DNA from: Bacillota bacterium
Lineage (GTDB): Bacteria > Bacillota > Sulfobacillia > JABLXB01
Direction of reading: 5' to 3'
NCBI GenBank assembly: GCA_013178305.1
Contig: JABLXB010000004.1
Location: 62,001 to 126,000 of the forward strand
DNA: 64,000 nucleotides
Position numbers and translations under genes: made by a program. The notes under the pieces were generated by a model that worked only from the letters and a program-made list of their open reading frames with translations, did not search any database and was not told the origin of the DNA. Positions 40,518-52,011 of this stretch are shown piece after piece (positions within the stretch are counted from its first letter, which is position 1; every line of letters begins with the position of its first letter).

Positions 40518-41075
40518 CTACGTGTTTTCTTCAGCAACCATACGACACAGGACAAGGGTCCCTCCAGGAGCGAGCACCTCGCCTTGCTCGTCGAGCTCCG
40601 GGTTGAACCCCGACAGTGCTGCCGCTCTGATCCTCGTGCAGCGTGCTACCACTGCTATAGCTTCCTCGAGGTCATCCAGGCTCACCCCGCCACGCACCGT
40701 AGGGAAATCATTTGTTGCCTTGGACCACGACACTACGTCTATGTCAACGTGAAGATAAACGCCTCCAACACGTGAGGCCACTGCCTCCAGAACGGGTCCC
40801 AGTGCGGGCTCTACGCCCTTTTGGGCGATATCGTCAGCAGTGACCACATCTATGCTCGAACCTGCCGGCGTAGACAGACTGACCCACAATCCCCCACTCC
40901 CTTCACCGTACCGCGGAGGTCCCCATCTGGCGACTTCTTCCGGGGTGAGTCTCGATACAGGGGTGACCCACAGCCCTTGCGCATTCAGCAAGACAGTCTG
41001 GTTCTCCTGTCCGCCGTGCCCAACAACTCCTCGACCCCTGTCAGCGCAAGGGCTTGCGGCTCCATGAGAATAATA
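40518..41075 (-). pseudogene. Arginase/ureohydrolase gene, N-terminally truncated at tRNA-Lys
   Basis: The C-terminal part of the ureohydrolase fold is visible: LHVDIDVVSW (the DxD metal motif), then SLDDLEEAIAVVARC and ALSGFNPELDEQGE, matching arginase/agmatinase/formimidoylglutamase ends. The N-terminal half with the GGDHS and DAHxD motifs is missing: upstream, the frame runs straight into tRNA-Lys, whose 3' end is at 41076. At about 185 residues instead of about 300, it cannot bind the full metal pair. The truncation exactly 3' of a tRNA fits loss or exchange of DNA at an integration site. Confidence 0.7.
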
Positions 41076-41151
41076 TGGTGGACCATGAAGGACTCGAACC
41101 TTCAACCGTCCGATTAAGAGTCGGATGCTCTACCAATTGAGCTAATGGTCC
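41076..41151 (-). tRNA. tRNA-Lys (anticodon CTT)
   Basis: Folds as a cloverleaf with acceptor GGACCAT/ATGGTCC, D-arm TAGCTC, anticodon stem TCCGA/TCGGA and loop CTCTTAA (anticodon CTT), a T-arm with GGTTCGAGTCC, and an encoded CCA end at 41076-41078. It lies 71 bases after tRNA-Met on the same strand, probably in one transcript. Its 3' side abuts a truncated arginase-family gene. Confidence 0.95.
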
Positions 41152-44254: not shown

Positions 44255-44452
44255 TCAGGCGAGTAAATTCTTAAGCTCCTTCACTACTAATCCAGCCTGT
44301 CGGATGACCGCCCTAAGCACGCCTTGTCTACATCTGGGCCCCCATGATGGAGGACCGTAGTCGACCCGGAACGCATGGCTGCACTGTTTAAGCACTGCGA
44401 GTGTACGTGAGTCCCTCATAGAGGATTCTGCTCCGGCGTGTGGAATATACAC
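44255..44452 (-). CDS. Short ORF, uncertain
   Basis: 65 residues (or 54 from the ATG at 44419, with GGAG upstream) ending VVKELKNLLA, amphipathic in its last third. No family was recognised and nothing else supports translation. It fills most of the gap upstream of the yhf-type cluster. Confidence 0.2.
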   Translation of the reverse strand: MYIPHAGAESSMRDSRTLAVLKQCSHAFRVDYGPPSWGPRCRQGVLRAVIRQAGLVVKELKNLLA

Positions 44453-44453
44453 A
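44439..44453. promoter_or_regulatory. Possible operator upstream of the yhf-type cluster
   Basis: TGTG (44439-44442) and CACA (44450-44453) flank GAATATA, and a TATAAA box lies 13 bases later, before the yhfU-like GTG at 44487. AT-richness and symmetry make this the best candidate control site for the eight-gene unit. Consensus unchecked. Confidence 0.35.
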
Positions 44454-44486
44454 AATCAGTAGATTGTATAAAGAAGGCTGATCCCC

Positions 44487-44855
44487 GTGACCGTAAGGAT
44501 CATGATAGGCGGACAGGTCGACAAGGGGACGGTCCTCACCCTCGCAAGACGGCACGGCGGAGCCAGGGTTGAGGCGATCGCGCTCAGCGACATCGAGGCC
44601 GCGATGGAGGTCAAGTCGGGCCGCGCCGATTATTACCTGGGCGCGTGCCTCACCGGTGGAGGCGGTCTCGCAATGGCCATCGCGCTGCTGGGGATCGAAC
44701 GCTGCGTGACCGTCTCGTCCCCCGGGAGGCCTCCAAAGCCGGAGGAAATCCGCAAACACGTCAGGGCCGGCAAGAAAGCCTTCGGGTTTACGGCGGACCA
44801 TGCGGAAGCGGCCGTGCCGGCAATCATCCAGGCCCTGCTGGAGGTGGCGGAGTGA
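44487..44855 (+). CDS. yhfU: DUF2620 protein, YhfU-like
   Basis: 122 residues from a GTG at 44487 behind GAAGG. The sequence TVRIMIGGQVDKGTVLTLAR and the GACLTGGGGLAMAIALLG stretch match the DUF2620/YhfU outline. The Gly-rich loop looks like a nucleotide- or phosphate-binding turn, unproven. It is the first gene of the yhf-type cluster, and its stop overlaps the YhfS-like GTG start (GTGA). Function unknown in any organism as far as I can say; co-transcription with a PLP enzyme, transporter and hydrolase points to metabolism of a small nitrogenous compound. Confidence 0.8.
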   Translation: MTVRIMIGGQVDKGTVLTLARRHGGARVEAIALSDIEAAMEVKSGRADYYLGACLTGGGGLAMAIALLGIERCVTVSSPGRPPKPEEIRKHVRAGKKAFGFTADHAEAAVPAIIQALLEVAE

Positions 44856-45961
44856 CCGGGAGCCTCGAGAGTCACCCCTTGGAGTGTATGGACCTCGAAA
44901 GTGCGATTCGGATACAGTTCCGCCTCGTCGATACCATTCAGCGGCATTTTGACGGGTATTCCGTCATAGGATCGGGAGACCTCGGGGTCGTGGAATCCCT
45001 CGGTAGGCCCCGGACCACCGCAATGGTTGAGTCGACGCTCGCGGAGTTCTTCGGCGCCGATGACGCTGTGCTCGTACGGGGAGCGGGGACGGGGGCAATC
45101 CGCTCAGCACTGCAGGCCGGTCTCCGGCCGGGGGCGAGCGTGCTGGTCCACAGTGCCCCGATATACCCCACAACCCGGGTTACCCTGGAATCGATGCGCG
45201 TAACCCTCCTGAAGTGCGATTTCAACGACCTTGACGAGACGGGAGAGGCCTGCCGGGGGGTCGACGCGGCCCTGGTCCAGCACACCCGGCAGTCGCCACG
45301 GGACCGCTGCCGTCCCGGTGAGGTTATCGCCACGCTGAGGTCATCCGACCCGGGTCTGTTCATCCTCAGCGACGACAACTATGCCGTCATGAGGGTGCCG
45401 AAGATAGGTTTTGAGTCCGGCGCCACGGCGTCGGCTTTTTCGCTGTTCAAACTCCTCGGCCCTGAGGGAATCGGGTGCGTAGTCGGCAAGAGCGAGTTGA
45501 TCCGCCGGATAAGGGAACAGACCTACTCCGGCGGCAGTCAGGTCCAGGGGCCCGAAGCCATGGACGCGCTGCGCAGCCTGGTCTACGCTCCGGTTGCCCT
45601 CGCTATCCAGGGCCGGGTGGTCCGGGAGGTGGTCGAACGGCTCTGCGCAGGCGAGATCCCCGAGGTGAAAGCCGCGCACGCAGCCAACGCGCAATCAAGT
45701 GTGGCGCTGGTGGAATTCCGCGATCCAATCGCTCCAAGGGTCCTCGAACACGCCTGGAGGTTCGGAGCGGCGCCACACCCGGTCGGAGCGGAGTCCCGTT
45801 ATGAGGTAGCTGCCCTGTTCTATCGTGTCTCCGGAACTTATCTCGAGGATGACCCCAGTCTGCAGTCGTACATGATCCGGGTCAACCCCATGCGGGCCGG
45901 ATCGGATACCGTCCTGAGGGTCCTCCGCCAGACCCTGGATTACGTGCGCAATTCTGGTTGA
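44852..45961 (+). CDS. yhfS: PLP-dependent fold-type I enzyme, YhfS-like
   Basis: 369 residues from the GTG at 44852, preceded by GGAGG and overlapping yhfU by four bases. Fold-type I aminotransferase/desulfurase features are present: a GAGTGAIR-type phosphate loop (about 75-82), the HTRQSP region, and the probable PLP lysine in SLFKLLGPEG. E. coli YhfS has the same outline. It presumably transaminates, cleaves or racemises an amino compound brought in by the YhfT-like transporter. The reaction is unknown. Confidence 0.82.
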   Translation: MTGSLESHPLECMDLESAIRIQFRLVDTIQRHFDGYSVIGSGDLGVVESLGRPRTTAMVESTLAEFFGADDAVLVRGAGTGAIRSALQAGLRPGASVLVHSAPIYPTTRVTLESMRVTLLKCDFNDLDETGEACRGVDAALVQHTRQSPRDRCRPGEVIATLRSSDPGLFILSDDNYAVMRVPKIGFESGATASAFSLFKLLGPEGIGCVVGKSELIRRIREQTYSGGSQVQGPEAMDALRSLVYAPVALAIQGRVVREVVERLCAGEIPEVKAAHAANAQSSVALVEFRDPIAPRVLEHAWRFGAAPHPVGAESRYEVAALFYRVSGTYLEDDPSLQSYMIRVNPMRAGSDTVLRVLRQTLDYVRNSG

Positions 45962-45976
45962 GAGGGAGGCGATCCC

Positions 45977-47257
45977 ATGTTGTTCGGGAAGATCATCGTG
46001 GCGGCAGCGATGGGCGGGCTTGCGGCGGCACTTGCACAGAAGGGTATCGCAGTATTTCACGACGGGCTCAGGCCGGTTATGCCGGAGTTCCTGGAGGGGC
46101 GCATGAAGCGCAGAGAACTCGCCCTGACCAGCTTCGCCCTCAGTTTCGGACTCGTGGTCGGCTACGGCATACCGGTCTCGTTGACGGGCGCACTCTTGCT
46201 GATCCACTCGGTTTTCCTCGCGACGGACATCATAGCCGCGTTCTCGCCCAGTACACCTGTCGCCGCAGCGATCGGCGCTCTGTACGGCGGCGGGATTGCG
46301 GTCGGGCTTCAGTGGATAGTCAACCTGATAAAAATGCTGCCGGTCAACTTCCTCGGGGCTCTCGGGGATGTCGGGACTCCGATCGTGGTGGCGTTTGCAG
46401 TCTTCCCAGCCCTTGCGGTGGGCTACCAGTACGGCGCCAGGAAGGGAATCTACACCCTCCTATTCTCGCTGCTTGTCAGGCAGCTCGTCGTCAGATTCAG
46501 TCCTATTCCGCTGGGCACCGCCAAGCTCAACATCAATCCTGAGGGTTCGGCCCTTGTGGCGGGCATGGTGTTCCTGCTCATGTATGCCATGCGTGAAAAG
46601 GCCGGCGGGCACGAAGTCGACACGGCATCGATATTTGCCAACCGCGTGACGCGGATCAAGAAGAACCTGCCCTACCTCGCGGTCATGGGGGCGCTTGTAG
46701 GTATCGCCACTCAACTACATATCGTCGCCGGCGACCCCATTTCCCTGAATCTCGTGGCGAAGGGGAACATCACTGACGCGGCGATAGCGGCATTCGCCCG
46801 CGCGATCGGCTTCATTCCCCTCGTGGGCACAACCGCCATCGCCACCGGCGTGTACGGTCCCGTAGGCATGACACTGGTATTCGGCGCTGCCCTCCTCTCC
46901 CCCAATCCGGTCGTGGCGGGGATCCTCGGAGCAGCCGTCATTGGTGCCGAGGTCCTTTTTCTGGACGTGCTGGCCCGGTTTATGGACAGGTACCCCGGTA
47001 TTCGCAGGGCCGGCGAGCACATCCGGACGGCTATGACCAAGGTGCTCGAGATCGCGCTGCTTGTTGGAGGTATGACGGCGGGCAACTCCATGGCCCCCGG
47101 CCTCGGGTTCTTCCTCGTGGCGGGTGTTTACATTCTCAACGAAATCGCGGGGATGCCCATCACTCGCATGGCAGTCGGCCCTGTGGCGGCCATCCTTGTG
47201 GGCGTGGCCATCAACATACTGAAGGTCCTGGGGCTGTTCATAGTCCCGGTAAAGTAA
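45977..47257 (+). CDS. yhfT: Multi-pass transporter, YhfT-like
   Basis: 426 residues behind GGGAGG. The protein has about 10-12 hydrophobic segments with few charges; a cytoplasmic loop with EKAGGHEVDT splits two halves. It corresponds to the YhfT family, whose substrate is not known. As the only membrane protein in the cluster, it is the probable importer for the pathway. Spacing to yhfS is 15 bases. A strong stem-loop follows its stop. Confidence 0.82.
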   Translation: MLFGKIIVAAAMGGLAAALAQKGIAVFHDGLRPVMPEFLEGRMKRRELALTSFALSFGLVVGYGIPVSLTGALLLIHSVFLATDIIAAFSPSTPVAAAIGALYGGGIAVGLQWIVNLIKMLPVNFLGALGDVGTPIVVAFAVFPALAVGYQYGARKGIYTLLFSLLVRQLVVRFSPIPLGTAKLNINPEGSALVAGMVFLLMYAMREKAGGHEVDTASIFANRVTRIKKNLPYLAVMGALVGIATQLHIVAGDPISLNLVAKGNITDAAIAAFARAIGFIPLVGTTAIATGVYGPVGMTLVFGAALLSPNPVVAGILGAAVIGAEVLFLDVLARFMDRYPGIRRAGEHIRTAMTKVLEIALLVGGMTAGNSMAPGLGFFLVAGVYILNEIAGMPITRMAVGPVAAILVGVAINILKVLGLFIVPVK

Positions 47258-47266
47258 CGTACCCGG

Positions 47267-47293
47267 CCTGGGCCGGGGAGAAACCGGCCCAGG
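47267..47293 (+). promoter_or_regulatory. Intercistronic hairpin between yhfT and yhfZ
   Basis: CCTGGGCCGG (47267-47276) and CCGGCCCAGG (47284-47293) form a perfect 10-base stem with a GGAGAAA loop, without a T tract, just before the yhfZ ribosome site (AAGGAGAG, about 47298). It may divide the unit into transport and regulatory/catabolic parts. Confidence 0.6.
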
Positions 47294-47315
47294 TCCCAAG
47301 GAGAGCATCGCGGCA

Positions 47316-48242
47316 ATGAAGATGACCGACATCAGCCAGAGTCTGCTCAGGAAAGACGGCTACGTCGCGGTGCAGATAGCCAGGGACCTGCTCGGCAGGC
47401 GCCCGGGCGAACGGTTACCGCGCGTCCAGGACTACGCCGAGACATTTCAGACCGGCCACGGCACGATCCAGCACGGCCTCAAACTCCTCGTAGAAGCCGG
47501 GGCGATAGCGCTGGAGGCCCGCGGGCACCTGGGGACGTACCTGGCTGCGATGGACTGCAAGAAGCTGTGGGAGATCAGTGGACAGGCATTCATACTTGGC
47601 CTGATGCCCCTCCCGTACAGTCGCAGGTATGAGGGACTGGCAACAGGGGTGTACGAGGCGTTTCGCAAGGCGAACGTCCCGTTCAATCTCGCGTATATCC
47701 GCGGTTCAGCCAACCGGCTGCAAGCGCTCGAGCGAAACCAGGGGGACTTCGTCGTACTGTCGAGGATGTCGGTCGAAGCCGCGCAAAAGGAACATGATAT
47801 TACGATCGTAGTCGGCTTCGGCCCGCGGACATACGTCGGCGAGCATGCGTTGGTCCTGCGGAAGGGGGTCCACGGGGCAATCACCGAGGGGATGCGGGTG
47901 GGGGTCGACCCCCACAGCCTCGACCAGTGCCAGCTGACGCGGAGACTGTGTGAGGGAAAGCGCGTTGAGATGGTCGAGATCAAGTACACGCAGGTCATTG
48001 AAATGCTGGAGCTCGGCCGGATCGATGCCGTCGTCTGGAACGCAGACGAAGTCCCGAGGTCGGGCAAGGTCAGGGTCGTTCAGATCGATCTGGGGCCACA
48101 GTCCAGCAACACCGAGGCTGTACTGGTGGCCCGAAAAGACCGGACGGAGATCGAACGCATCCTCTCGCACGTCGTGGTGCCGTCAGAAGTGTTGGAGGTC
48201 CAGCGCCAGGTTCTGTCGGGCGAAAGGATCCCGAGCTACTGA
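47316..48242 (+). CDS. yhfZ: Winged-helix regulator, YhfZ-like
   Basis: 308 residues. The N-terminal 85 residues form a GntR-like winged helix (LPRVQDYAETFQTGHGTIQ). The rest resembles the YhfZ ligand-binding domain (FRKANVPFNLAYIRGSA, then DFVVLSRMSVEAAQ), a periplasmic-binding-like fold used as a sensor. E. coli YhfZ occupies the same cluster. It is the likely repressor of this unit, responding to a pathway compound. Confidence 0.8.
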   Translation: MKMTDISQSLLRKDGYVAVQIARDLLGRRPGERLPRVQDYAETFQTGHGTIQHGLKLLVEAGAIALEARGHLGTYLAAMDCKKLWEISGQAFILGLMPLPYSRRYEGLATGVYEAFRKANVPFNLAYIRGSANRLQALERNQGDFVVLSRMSVEAAQKEHDITIVVGFGPRTYVGEHALVLRKGVHGAITEGMRVGVDPHSLDQCQLTRRLCEGKRVEMVEIKYTQVIEMLELGRIDAVVWNADEVPRSGKVRVVQIDLGPQSSNTEAVLVARKDRTEIERILSHVVVPSEVLEVQRQVLSGERIPSY

Positions 48243-48270
48243 CGAGTGTGTCCGCGAGGAGGTCCCGGTT

Positions 48271-48711
48271 TTGGCGGTGGAACTGCGTCTACGGTTGCTG
48301 AAGGAAAGCGGACAGGCATCCCACGAGGTAATCGCGGAAGTGCACGATATAGTCGACCAAATCGAGAGTCACTACGGGGTACGTGTCGACGACCAGGAGA
48401 GCGGGATGTTCGTAAACCACCTCGCGCTTGCACTGGAGAGGCTGAGGCTGGGCCGCGGGATCGACAGCATTCCCCCCGTGGTACTGGAAGAAGCACGGAC
48501 CTTCAAAGAAGAGTGGGAGTTCGCTCAGAAAATCGCGTCTCGTGTAGAAGGGCGATTTAAGCATCCTATTCCGGAAGCCGAGATCGGGTATATCGCACTC
48601 TACTTGAGAATGCTGCATCTTCCCGGCGGAGGGCCCTGCGACTGCCGGAAGGAAGGTGGGCCGAACGAACTCGAAAATACAGACAGTCCTCGGGCCGATT
48701 TACCCGAATGA
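48271..48711 (+). CDS. yhfY: PRD-domain protein, YhfY-like
   Basis: 146 residues from a TTG at 48271, behind GAGGAGG at 8-base spacing. It shows an N-terminal LLKESGQASHEVIAEVHDI helix and the PRD-like FVNHLALALERLRLGRGI plus EIGYIALYLRMLH at the end, with histidines typical of PTS regulation domains. It has no DNA-binding part. The C-terminal tail overlaps the next gene by 56 bases. The E. coli homologue YhfY is equally small. It may bind or modulate YhfZ. Confidence 0.75.
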   Translation: MAVELRLRLLKESGQASHEVIAEVHDIVDQIESHYGVRVDDQESGMFVNHLALALERLRLGRGIDSIPPVVLEEARTFKEEWEFAQKIASRVEGRFKHPIPEAEIGYIALYLRMLHLPGGGPCDCRKEGGPNELENTDSPRADLPE

Positions 48712-49579
48712 GTTGGGGCCGGCGCTCGTGCACGAGCACCTGGTGATAGACCTGTCCGGCCCCAAGAACGACCCCGACGCCTGTATCGGTACCCCTTCGG
48801 TCATGATCCCGGAGGTAGCTGCCATGGTCGGTGCCGGCGGCAGGGCAATCGTCGAACTCACCAACACCGGCATGGGACGCGACATCGACCGGCTTCGCGA
48901 GATAAGCTCCGCGACGGGCTGTCACGTGATCGCGGCGACCGGGTTCTATCAGGTGTCCTATCATCCGGAATGGCTGCGCAGCAAGACCGTGGACGAAATC
49001 GCGGACATCATGGTCCGCGAGGTTACCTGCGGTATCGACGGCACGGCCGCGAAGGCGGGCGTAATCGGGGAGATCGGTACGAGCAGGAGTAGAGTGCACC
49101 CTGAGGAGGAGAGGGTCCTGAGGGCGGCCGCACGGGCCAACCTCCGGACCGGCGTCCCGATCTCAACCCACTGCACCCTGGGCACCATGGCGACGGAGCA
49201 ACTGGACATTCTCGAATCCGAAGGGGTCGAGTTGCACAGGGTCGCGATAGGCCACCTCGATCTGGTCGACGATATCGAGTACCATTCCGAAGTAGCCAGG
49301 AGAGGGGCGTTCGTCCAGTACGATACCGTGGGCAAGCACAACTACCAGCCGGACGATGTGCGAATCAGGCTCATTCTGGACATGCTCGACAGGGGTTTCG
49401 TGAGACAGGTGATGCTGTCCTGTGATGTGACCCGGAGGTCCCACCTGAAATCCAGCGGTGGAAACGGCTACGACTACCTCTTCAGGGTTTTCCTGCCGGA
49501 GCTGATGGCGGGGGGCCTGGACCAGGCAAGCGTCAAGGTGATCACTAACGACAATCCGGCGAGGTTTCTCGCCTTCTAG
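48656..49579 (+). CDS. php: Phosphotriesterase-homology protein (Php)
   Basis: 307 residues from a GTG at 48656, overlapping yhfY. Binuclear-site motifs of the PTE family are in order: LVHEHLVID (HxH), a Glu in VIGEIG that may replace the usual carboxylated Lys, STHC, AIGHLD and the late Asp in SCDVT. PTE relatives hydrolyse lactones, phosphotriesters or amides. E. coli Php lies in the same cluster and its natural substrate is unknown. It probably opens a ring or cleaves an ester in the pathway. Confidence 0.85.
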   Translation: MGRTNSKIQTVLGPIYPNELGPALVHEHLVIDLSGPKNDPDACIGTPSVMIPEVAAMVGAGGRAIVELTNTGMGRDIDRLREISSATGCHVIAATGFYQVSYHPEWLRSKTVDEIADIMVREVTCGIDGTAAKAGVIGEIGTSRSRVHPEEERVLRAAARANLRTGVPISTHCTLGTMATEQLDILESEGVELHRVAIGHLDLVDDIEYHSEVARRGAFVQYDTVGKHNYQPDDVRIRLILDMLDRGFVRQVMLSCDVTRRSHLKSSGGNGYDYLFRVFLPELMAGGLDQASVKVITNDNPARFLAF

Positions 49580-49607
49580 CCTGGCTGCGGCGACGGAGTG
49601 ATTGCGG

Positions 49608-50804
49608 TTGTTCCTGGACGTGACATGCAGGCGTAATCCCGGCCTCATCAGGGCGGCTGTCAGGCTCCACCAGTCGGGCCGGATATGGCCCAATACGTAC
49701 GTGGTGGACCTCGACGCAGTCGAGGCAAACGCGCGTCTCATCGCCGGGGCGGCCCGTTCGGCCGGAATATCCCTATACTTCATGACCAAGCAGCTGAACC
49801 GTAACCCCGAGATCGCGCGGGCTATTGCCTCGCAGGGGATCGCCAGGGCGGTAGCCGTTGACTGGGAGGAGGCCATGACCCTCGATCAGGCCGGCGTCCG
49901 GGTCGGTCACGTGGGGCACCTGGTCCAGCTTCCGTGCAAGGCGATCGGCCCCATTTTCTCCATGAAGCCCGAGGTGATCACGGTCTTCAGCCTGGACAAG
50001 GCGGCCGAGATCGCCGCGGAAGCCATAAACAGGGGGATGGAGCAGCCGATACTCCTGAGGGTGGTGGGCCGTGGTGATTGGTTCCACCCGGGTCAGGTGG
50101 GAGGCATAGCGGAGAGGGACTTGCCGTCCGTCGCCAACGCCATCGCACACCTCGGTGGAGTGAAGATAGCGGGTGTTACGTCGTTTCCGTGCGTCACGTT
50201 CGACGAGCGTAGACGGACAGCGGTCGCGACCCCCAATATGAGGACCCTCCGGCGTTGCGCACTATTGCTGGAGAAGGAATTGGGTATACGGGTGAGCCAG
50301 GTAAACGCCCCCAGCATGACTGCAGTGGGCACCATGGACCTGCTCGCCCGCGAAGGAGCGACACACGCTGAACCCGGCCACTCACTCACGGGCACGACTC
50401 CGCTGCACGCCCGTTCGGACCAGCCCGAGACTCCGGCGGTCGTCTATGTGACCGAGGTGTCCCACGTCTTCGGCGGCAGGGTGTACTGCTTCGGCGGAGG
50501 CTTCTACCCGCGTTCCCAGGCCAGGGCGGCGCTTAGTGGTCGCGACCCCGACGAGTTGTTCGGCCGCACCCTCACCTTCGAGGGGATTTCCAACGAGAGC
50601 ATCGACTATTATGGCACCTTGATCAACTCCCGGGGCCTCGATATCCGGACCGGAGACACGGTGGTCTTCGCCTTTCGCGCGCAGATGTTCGCCTCGCGTT
50701 CGTCCCTCGCCCTGGCCAGGCGGGTTTCTTCGGATGATCCGGATCTGGTCTCCGTCTACAGCCCGCGTGGTGACCGGAGGGAGACGCGTGAGGCCCGTGA
50801 ATAG
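49608..50804 (+). CDS. yhfX: Alanine racemase-fold PLP protein, YhfX-like
   Basis: 398 residues from a TTG at 49608; another TTG at 49602 is possible. The N-terminus MFLDVTCRRNP matches YhfX proteins. YVVDLDAVEANARLI and SLYFMTKQLNRNPEIA provide the PLP lysine (K in FMTKQ) of a fold-type III alanine racemase/threonine-aldolase-like barrel, and the C-terminal VYCFGGGFYPR region supports the family. It would act on an amino acid produced or used by the YhfS-like enzyme. Reaction unknown. Confidence 0.82.
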   Translation: MFLDVTCRRNPGLIRAAVRLHQSGRIWPNTYVVDLDAVEANARLIAGAARSAGISLYFMTKQLNRNPEIARAIASQGIARAVAVDWEEAMTLDQAGVRVGHVGHLVQLPCKAIGPIFSMKPEVITVFSLDKAAEIAAEAINRGMEQPILLRVVGRGDWFHPGQVGGIAERDLPSVANAIAHLGGVKIAGVTSFPCVTFDERRRTAVATPNMRTLRRCALLLEKELGIRVSQVNAPSMTAVGTMDLLAREGATHAEPGHSLTGTTPLHARSDQPETPAVVYVTEVSHVFGGRVYCFGGGFYPRSQARAALSGRDPDELFGRTLTFEGISNESIDYYGTLINSRGLDIRTGDTVVFAFRAQMFASRSSLALARRVSSDDPDLVSVYSPRGDRRETREARE

Positions 50805-52011
50805 GCGAGCGATCCTGGTTGTGCTCGACGGGCTGGGCATCGGCGAGATGCCCGACGTCACCAGGTTCAGACCACAGGACGCCGGCGCAAACACGCTGGC
50901 TCACATTCTCGAGAGATCGCCCGGTCTCCGCCTCCCCGTGCTGGAGGCGATGGGTTTGGGGAATGTTGTCCGGGCCACAGGCCTGAGGCCGGCCGGTCCC
51001 GCCGCCTTGTCCAGTTACGGCCGGTGCATGCTCGGTCACGAGGGTGCGGACACGTACGCGGGTCACAACGAGATCGCTGGAAGTAGCCCGCCAAGATCCG
51101 CCCGGATGCTTTTCTCTGAAGTATCCGCGCGCGTGCGTTCTGTCCTGGAAAGCCGGGGTTACAGGGTCGCTGCGGTCCCCGCCGGTGGGCCGGCGCTTGT
51201 AGTCGAGGATGCCGTGCTTGTCGGGGACAACCTCGAGGCAGACCCTGGAGCCGTGTTCAACGTGACTGCGGCGCTGGATGCCATCCCGTTCGAGACCGTC
51301 CTCGCCATTGCCCGTGCAGTCCGCGGGGAGGTACCCGTGAGCCGCGTGATCGCGCTCGGCGGACCCCGCATCACTATACACGACATCGTCAACGAGGTCA
51401 GGTCGACCGCATCGGGCCAGACAGGGGTGGTCACACCGAACCTGAACATATACAACGAACAATACCAGGTACGCCACATGGGATACGGCGTAAATCCCGG
51501 TCGCCAGGCTCCGGGTCTTGCCGCCAGAGCAGGCATTCCGGTTACGCTCATCGGGAAGATGGCCGACGTGATAGACTGCCCCGGCGCGCACGCCGTGCCG
51601 TGTGTGCCCACCCGCGAAGTACTGCACCACGTGCTCGAGGAGATGGACCGTATCGAGGACGGGCTGATTGCGGCGACCGTCCAGGAGACGGATCTTGCCG
51701 GACATGAGAAGGACACCGCCAGGTACGCCCAGGTGTTGATGACGGCGGATGAGCTGATCGGCCGCATCCTGGCCTGCCTGGCGGCCCGCGACTTATTTGT
51801 CGTCGCCGCAGACCACGGCAACGACCCTACCATCATCCACCGCAGCCACACGCGGGAGATGGTCCCGCTCCTCGCCCTCTACCGGGCCCAACCCGCCAGG
51901 GACCTGGGACTCCGCCGCACCCTCTCCGATATCGGCGCGACGATCTCGGAGTATCTCGGGACCGGACCCACCGAGACCGGCGAGAGTTTCCTGAGCATGC
52001 TGGGGGGCTAG
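50788..52011 (+). CDS. yhfW: Phosphopentomutase-like protein, YhfW-like
   Basis: 407 residues from a GTG at 50788, preceded by GGAGGG and overlapping yhfX by 17 bases. Alkaline-phosphatase-superfamily metal motifs are visible: VVLDGLGIGEMPD at the start, ADTYAGHNE (the Thr nucleophile region as in DeoB), QETDLAGH, and AADHGNDPTIIH near the end. DeoB moves phosphate on pentoses; YhfW proteins share the site but their substrate is not known. It closes the yhf-type cluster and may supply or use a phosphorylated sugar-like intermediate. Confidence 0.85.
   Translation: MRPVNRRAILVVLDGLGIGEMPDVTRFRPQDAGANTLAHILERSPGLRLPVLEAMGLGNVVRATGLRPAGPAALSSYGRCMLGHEGADTYAGHNEIAGSSPPRSARMLFSEVSARVRSVLESRGYRVAAVPAGGPALVVEDAVLVGDNLEADPGAVFNVTAALDAIPFETVLAIARAVRGEVPVSRVIALGGPRITIHDIVNEVRSTASGQTGVVTPNLNIYNEQYQVRHMGYGVNPGRQAPGLAARAGIPVTLIGKMADVIDCPGAHAVPCVPTREVLHHVLEEMDRIEDGLIAATVQETDLAGHEKDTARYAQVLMTADELIGRILACLAARDLFVVAADHGNDPTIIHRSHTREMVPLLALYRAQPARDLGLRRTLSDIGATISEYLGTGPTETGESFLSMLGG

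Follow-up and report, generated by a model that had tools for sequence, protein, structure and literature searches.

A conserved yhf-type gene cluster in a Bacillota genome, with a predicted operator and a possible catabolic role

Overview

The window analyzed here is a stretch of 64,000 nucleotides from a Bacillota bacterium (GenBank assembly GCA_013178305.1, contig JABLXB010000004.1, positions 62,001 to 126,000), and its positions 44487–52011 contain eight contiguous plus-strand genes that are orthologues of Escherichia coli yhfU, yhfS, yhfT, yhfZ, yhfY, php, yhfX, and yhfW, in that order. The yhf cluster is an apparently co-regulated, widely conserved unit across four bacterial phyla, and the window holds an unremarkable eight-gene example of this known but unsolved set. 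Our preferred reading, to which we assign a probability of roughly 45%, is that these genes form a catabolic operon, induced by its substrate, that acts on an imported compound with amine-bearing and sugar-like parts. Among the operons of E. coli K-12 that have no assigned function, yhf is one of the larger. In line with the first-pass annotation of this DNA, which was made from the sequence alone and knew of no assigned pathway, we found no pathway or substrate for the set in the open-access literature, only incidental mentions. Most of the operon is deleted in E. coli DGF-298, a strain that stays viable with a reduced genome (PMC10652928), and YhfZ turned up in a peptide-resistance screen (PMC12147183). 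To the first-pass annotation we add a predicted operator, a predicted RpiB fold for DUF2620, a ninth gene, and a putative modular order of steps.

The eight genes of the cluster

The genes, all on the plus strand, are as follows.

44487–44855, plus strand: yhfU, a DUF2620 protein with a predicted RpiB/LacA-type fold (Pfam DUF2620, PF10941, 141 bits; AlphaFold2 model; Foldseek)
44852–45961, plus strand: yhfS, a fold-type-I pyridoxal 5'-phosphate (PLP) enzyme (YhfS-like_C, PF22475, 141 bits, and Aminotran_5; phmmer match to PDB entry 4J8L, YhfS, E = 1.6e-112)
45977–47257, plus strand: yhfT, a multi-helix membrane protein and presumed importer (YhfT, PF10797, 572 bits)
47316–48242, plus strand: yhfZ, a GntR-type helix-turn-helix (HTH) protein with a YhfZ_C ligand domain, the presumed operon repressor (YhfZ_C, 250 bits, and HTH_41; NCBIfam NF041241, 358 bits against a cut-off of 260; PDB entry 2OZZ, E = 7.7e-33)
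48271–48711, plus strand: yhfY, a single PRD domain without an HTH (PRD, PF00874, 60 bits)
48656–49579, plus strand: php, a phosphotriesterase-family metallohydrolase (PTE, PF02126, 282 bits; PDB entries 4LEF/1BF6, E ∼1e-80)
49608–50804, plus strand: yhfX, an alanine-racemase-type (fold III) PLP enzyme (YhfX-like_C, PF21279, 90 bits; Ala_racemase_N, PF01168, 58 bits; match to PDB entry 4KBX, YhfX, E = 5.3e-90)
50788–52011, plus strand: yhfW, a putative DeoB-like phosphomutase of the alkaline phosphatase superfamily (Metalloenzyme, 107 bits; NCBIfam NF009049, the PRK12383 model, 493 bits against a cut-off of 254)

All Pfam family assignments of the eight proteins lie above the curated cut-offs, YhfZ and YhfW also score as members of their NCBIfam equivalogs, and none of the proteins fell into another family in profile searches. 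Each aligns with its same-named E. coli K-12 counterpart over most of its length, with identities spanning 24–52% (YhfU 47%, YhfS 52%, YhfT 39%, YhfZ 35%, YhfY 25%, Php 46%, YhfX 40%, and YhfW 42%). The genes are tightly packed, with overlaps of 4 bp (U/S), 56 bp (Y/php), and 17 bp (X/W) and gaps of 15 bp (S/T), 58 bp (T/Z), and 28 bp (php/X), none exceeding 58 bp. In refining the starts, we set aside the mechanical open reading frame start at 44645 in favor of ∼44852 for yhfS and placed yhfX at a TTG (49608) and yhfW at a GTG (50788); for yhfY, TTG 48271 and GTG 48277 are the likeliest starts. The E. coli K-12 operon (b3376–b3383) likewise carries all eight orthologues on one strand with tight spacing; it differs in sequence, in its operator half-site, and in gene order, which is Z-Y-X-W-php-U-T-S there and U-S-T-Z-Y-php-X-W in the window. 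Taken together, these comparisons bear out the first-pass description of eight adjacent, same-strand yhf-type genes in an order unlike that of E. coli, among them two regulators (YhfZ and YhfY), a DeoB-like protein, and two PLP enzymes of different folds that belong to separate Pfam families.

Co-occurrence and distribution

Co-occurrence was assessed in 398 Bacillota genomes, the host genome included (genomes are labeled G and loci L). YhfT scored above its cut-off in 12 of the 398 and DUF2620 in the identical 12, while YhfS_C was found in 13 and YhfX_C in 15, both sets containing all 12 YhfT genomes. Random coincidence of two sets of 12 has a probability of ∼4e-23, relatedness aside, the 12 genomes representing nine families. 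The other cluster genes adjoin yhfT in all 12, with the exception of php in G384. G142 gave a thirteenth but weak match to YhfT, which has no cluster around it and was dropped. YhfT also occurs in Enterobacterales and Anaerolineae contigs, a Fusobacterium, and a Vibrio plasmid, and a search of viral contigs for it found none. Among complete E. coli genomes, at least 80% of the operon is retained in 5014 of 5426 (>90%). In Lactobacillus rhamnosus, the genes that mark one clinical clade include those for DUF2620, YhfX, PRD, and phosphotriesterase-related proteins (PMC7513527), a combination that resembles a yhf cluster.

Gene order is fluid. With A for the amidase gene described below and P for php, the order is Z-Y-X-W-P-U-T-S in Enterobacterales and Z-Y-U-T-(A)-P-S-X-W in the majority of the other Bacillota; the window, G348 (L050), and L003 (cut by a contig end) share U-S-T-Z-Y-(A)-P-X-W. 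Further orders are Z-S-X-W-Y-U-T-P-A (G381 and G341), Z-Y-U-T-S-P-X-W (G209), Z-Y-U-T-S-X-W (G384 and Anaerolineae), and Z-Y-P-U-T-X-W (Vibrio), so that at least five orders besides that of E. coli exist and order is not a defining trait of the yhf operon. Adjacency is kept nonetheless. The finding of the families together in one set of 12 genomes out of 398, adjacency despite reshuffling, and a shared operator argue for one functional system, as the first-pass annotation had proposed from the shuffled order alone. Separately, G045 has S-X-W at a contig end but neither YhfT nor YhfU.

A predicted operator marks the 5' end of the cluster

44444–44465, plus strand: predicted YhfZ operator, AATATACACAAATCAGTAGATT, ending 21 bp upstream of yhfU

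This site is an instance of a 22-bp palindrome, AATATACA-N6-TGTATATT, common to the regions upstream of the first gene, 26–38 bp from the start codon. In both Bacillota and Anaerolineae the palindrome precedes whichever gene comes first, yhfZ or yhfU, and a second copy often lies directly after yhfZ. Since the site tracks the 5' end of the operon rather than yhfZ itself, it fits the need of a repressor of the whole unit, and YhfZ is likely the factor that binds it. A matrix trained on 14 sites, all from other genomes, gave its top score in the window at 44444–44465 (28.3 bits); the next independent place scored 11.6 bits and the maximum in 20 simulated 64-kb sequences was 12.2 bits. In leave-one-out runs, the operator site ranked first in 11 of 13 loci, and in the remaining two it was outscored by the second copy, which directly follows yhfZ. 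A matrix scan of 2.0 of the 3.37 Mb of the host genome found no further convincing operator. The next two matches in that scan scored 18.0 and 15.4 bits and were rejected, being located within or at genes that have no relation to the cluster. Enterics have two 8-6-8 palindromes with TTCA/TGAA cores at −49 and −25, whose half-site, AATATTCA, differs by one base from that of the window. The operator opens an immediate ligand screen for YhfZ.

In YhfY, the second regulator, the first PRD histidine is kept (NHLALAL). The second is a tyrosine in the window (IALYLRML) and a histidine in most Bacillota copies; it is also lost in enterics.

DUF2620 is predicted to have an RpiB-type fold

The first-pass scheme gave DUF2620 no role, though its predicted fold is that of RpiB, which now provides a testable one. 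The AlphaFold2 model of YhfU has a predicted local distance difference test score (pLDDT) of 94. When searched against the PDB with Foldseek, ranks 1–32 were all RpiB/LacA-type isomerases, with template modeling (TM) scores up to 0.73 and E values from 2e-4, and the first other fold had a TM score of 0.49. Profile comparison between YhfU and RpiB is by itself only suggestive (hhalign P = 0.003, probability 10%), and thus the fold assignment is drawn from the structure search. Cys54 of YhfU aligns with the catalytic Cys of RpiB and opens a shared loop, Cys54-x-Thr56-Gly57-x-Gly59, in which the Cys is kept in all aligned copies and the Thr is replaced by Ser in G381; His105 is not invariant. YhfU is unlike the RpiB/LacAB superfamily in that it has no Pfam match to PF02502 (LacAB_rpiB), has a shorter C terminus, and, in the alignment, is missing the N-terminal Asp-His motif. 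Given the missing motif, we ascribe to YhfU the fold of these enzymes and do not claim an active sugar-phosphate isomerase; it may not be an isomerase.

YhfU could instead be a soluble partner of YhfT that binds the incoming compound via its RpiB fold and is not a pathway enzyme. YhfT and YhfU do co-evolve more closely with one another than with any other member (pairwise divergence correlation, r = 0.79), U lies directly upstream of T in most gene orders, and the missing Asp-His motif and variable His105 would suit a binding protein. We nevertheless consider a partner role unlikely: yhfS lies between the two genes in the window, YhfU remains 94% identical across the G384 replacement described below while YhfT differs (48%), and the invariant or nearly invariant Cys and loop suggest chemistry.

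A ninth gene and a block swap

The first-pass annotation called the cluster complete. All eight genes are indeed there; what it overlooked is a ninth gene, present in most Bacillota clusters and missing from this one. In many clusters, a ∼1.1-kb gap encodes a protein of ∼370 residues. It carries the amidase-signature sequence GTDGGGSVL, and all aligned copies conserve the lysine and both serines that a Lys-Ser-Ser triad would require. Pfam Amidase scores are near the cut-off (above it in two of the four copies tested), which indicates a divergent family member, and NCBI annotates the Cetobacterium copy as "amidase family protein". The gene occurs in 8 of the 12 Bacillota clusters as well as in L003 and Cetobacterium. 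It is absent from the clusters of the window, G298, G209, G384, Anaerolineae, and enterics, and none was found elsewhere in the host genome. The nine-gene version of Bacillota and Fusobacteriota (for example, Cetobacterium somerae plasmid NZ_CP092520 and L049–L054) shares the eight genes of the window and adds an amidase gene before php, or after it in G381 and G341. The amidase provides a second handle on the substrate chemistry.

A comparison of G079 (L049) with G384 (L093) suggests how the cluster is partitioned. Identities are 91% (Z), 89% (Y), 94% (U), 96% (S), 96% (X), and 95% (W), whereas the two YhfT proteins are only 48% identical and the G384 cluster is missing the amidase gene and php; a whole-genome search of G384 found no php homologue. 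The YhfT of G384 falls with those of Anaerolineae (support 100), whose clusters are also without amidase and php. As judged from these sequences, the yhfT-amidase-php block has been replaced in G384 by a different yhfT. Hydrolase presence appears to go with the YhfT type, with S, X, W, and U as a common core, and Php, being absent from G384 and from the Anaerolineae clusters, is outside the invariant core. Pairwise divergence fits this partition in part, with r = 0.88 between Php and the amidase, 0.79 between T and U, and 0.79–0.93 among Z, S, X, and W. The swap bears on which steps are upstream. From this one clear replacement and the Anaerolineae pattern, we infer an order of import, then hydrolysis where needed, and then the core reactions. 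The flow proposed by the first-pass annotation (uptake by YhfT, PLP chemistry by YhfS and YhfX, hydrolysis by Php, and phosphate movement by YhfW) needs re-ordering, since the block swap places Php and the amidase beside the transporter, before the PLP and mutase steps.

Proposed pathway and alternatives

YhfW resembles the phosphopentomutase DeoB in its nucleophile and metal-ligand motifs: its GADTYAGHNE and the Asp, DxxGH, ADHG, and HTRE motifs align with E. coli DeoB, with a nucleophile motif of D-T/S-x-x-G-H-x-E in which Ser replaces Thr in some members. It is unlike DeoB in scoring below the TIGR01696 deoB cut-off (136 versus 341 bits) and in missing, in the alignment, the Arg-Pro-Phe segment, the role of whose arginine is taken from the Bacillus cereus enzyme. 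The missing segment suggests a substrate other than plain ribose phosphate, on which YhfW probably works like a phosphomutase. In G341, yhfW (L056, 11493–12694, minus strand) appears split in two frames and the cluster may hold a frameshift; in the sister genome G381, yhfW is intact. In Php, the metal-ligand motifs (HEH, Glu, His, His, Asp) are invariant, with Glu (GEIG) at the bridging position of E. coli PHP, and the protein scores below the PRK09875 equivalog cut-off (303.5 versus 486 bits) with the bulk of the profile aligned. YhfT is a multi-helix membrane protein, and the permease role first proposed for it is putative; its AlphaFold2 model has a pLDDT of 75 and found no fold match in the PDB at E ≤ 0.001, so no transport class is named.

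In the catabolic operon that we favor, the GntR-type repressor YhfZ, which has a ligand domain of its own, would bind the palindrome at the 5' end. YhfT would import the compound and, in clusters that have them, Php and the separate amidase-signature enzyme would hydrolyze it in the form that enters, close to transport. The amine would then be processed by YhfX and by YhfS, the latter as a fold-I PLP lyase or transaminase. YhfW would shift phosphate within the sugar-like product, YhfU would probably isomerize the sugar-like part, and YhfY may couple expression to the phosphotransferase system. A sugar-phosphate side is suggested by the RpiB fold of YhfU, the DeoB-type YhfW, a NagB (above the TIGR00502 cut-off) that overlaps the end of yhfW in G095, and an HPr directly after yhfW in G355. 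An amino-sugar side is suggested by YhfX paralogues outside the cluster, which lie in sugar ATP-binding cassette (ABC) operons alongside genes for a BadF/NagK-type kinase or an AgaS-type isomerase. Judging by the accessory genes, the compound would combine an amine with a sugar-like part, though they do not identify it. Slightly more tentatively, we propose that DUF2620 is an unrecognized branch of the RpiB isomerase superfamily and that the operon encodes an undescribed pathway. In it, a shared core of PLP enzymes and phosphomutase, present in at least four phyla and in nearly all E. coli, would be supplied by interchangeable modules for import and hydrolysis, each consisting of one YhfT type that may or may not be joined by amidase and Php.

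Several observations weigh against a catabolic operon of this kind. The NagB and HPr neighbors occur in one genome each, no sugar kinase is present in the cluster, which leaves the phosphate source unexplained, and the Vibrio halioticoli plasmid locus has no YhfS. YhfU and YhfW are missing the RpiB and DeoB segments noted above, and YhfU has no PF02502 match. YhfT (r = 0.31–0.53) and YhfU (r = 0.56–0.70) diverge more loosely with the remaining members than with each other. Finally, an MttB-family methyltransferase and a corrinoid protein directly follow yhfW in two Anaerolineae clusters (L004, 11835–13920; L005, 8626–10856). These genes score below the trimethylamine model cut-off, are close to MtgC-type corrinoid proteins, and point to an N-methylated amine, not an amino sugar.

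The methyltransferase and corrinoid genes, which follow yhfW with overlap, raise the alternative of a sugar-free pathway for the breakdown of an amine that is methylated or phosphorylated (a betaine-like compound or a phospho-amino-alcohol), with YhfW as a mutase or phosphatase acting on it. Two PLP enzymes and an amidase suit amine chemistry, and the absence of the Arg-Pro-Phe segment from YhfW would also be accommodated. However, MttB is confined to Anaerolineae, and the YhfU fold, NagB, HPr together with the PRD, and the amino-sugar neighbors of the YhfX paralogues all indicate sugars; we regard such a pathway as an improbable account of the cluster. That the genes form a selfish operon without a shared pathway, co-occurring through horizontal transfer only, would suit the patchy spread inside families (one has it in 4 of its 13 genomes) and the plasmid copies, but it is very hard to square with retention in more than 90% of E. 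coli genomes, an operator that stays at the 5' end through reshuffling, the joint exchange of T, amidase, and php, and the way in which Z, S, X, and W diverge in step.

Other features

47264–47291, plus strand: G+C-rich inverted repeat between yhfT and yhfZ, a perfect dyad, CCTGGGCC...GGCCCAGG

The predicted hairpin (−29.1 kcal/mol, z = −2.2) is not followed by a T-run and, on this slight evidence, is possibly an mRNA processing or attenuation element. The stand-alone YhfX-like enzymes in sugar ABC operons at L090, L091, and L092 are also accompanied by ROK or DeoR regulators. Elsewhere in the window, an arginase-family frame of 195 residues (40518–41105, minus strand) matches only the C-terminal part of its profile (173–264 of 280). 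It abuts a tRNA-Lys gene (41076–41151), which has a tRNA-Met next to it, and could be what is left of a gene truncated by an integration there.

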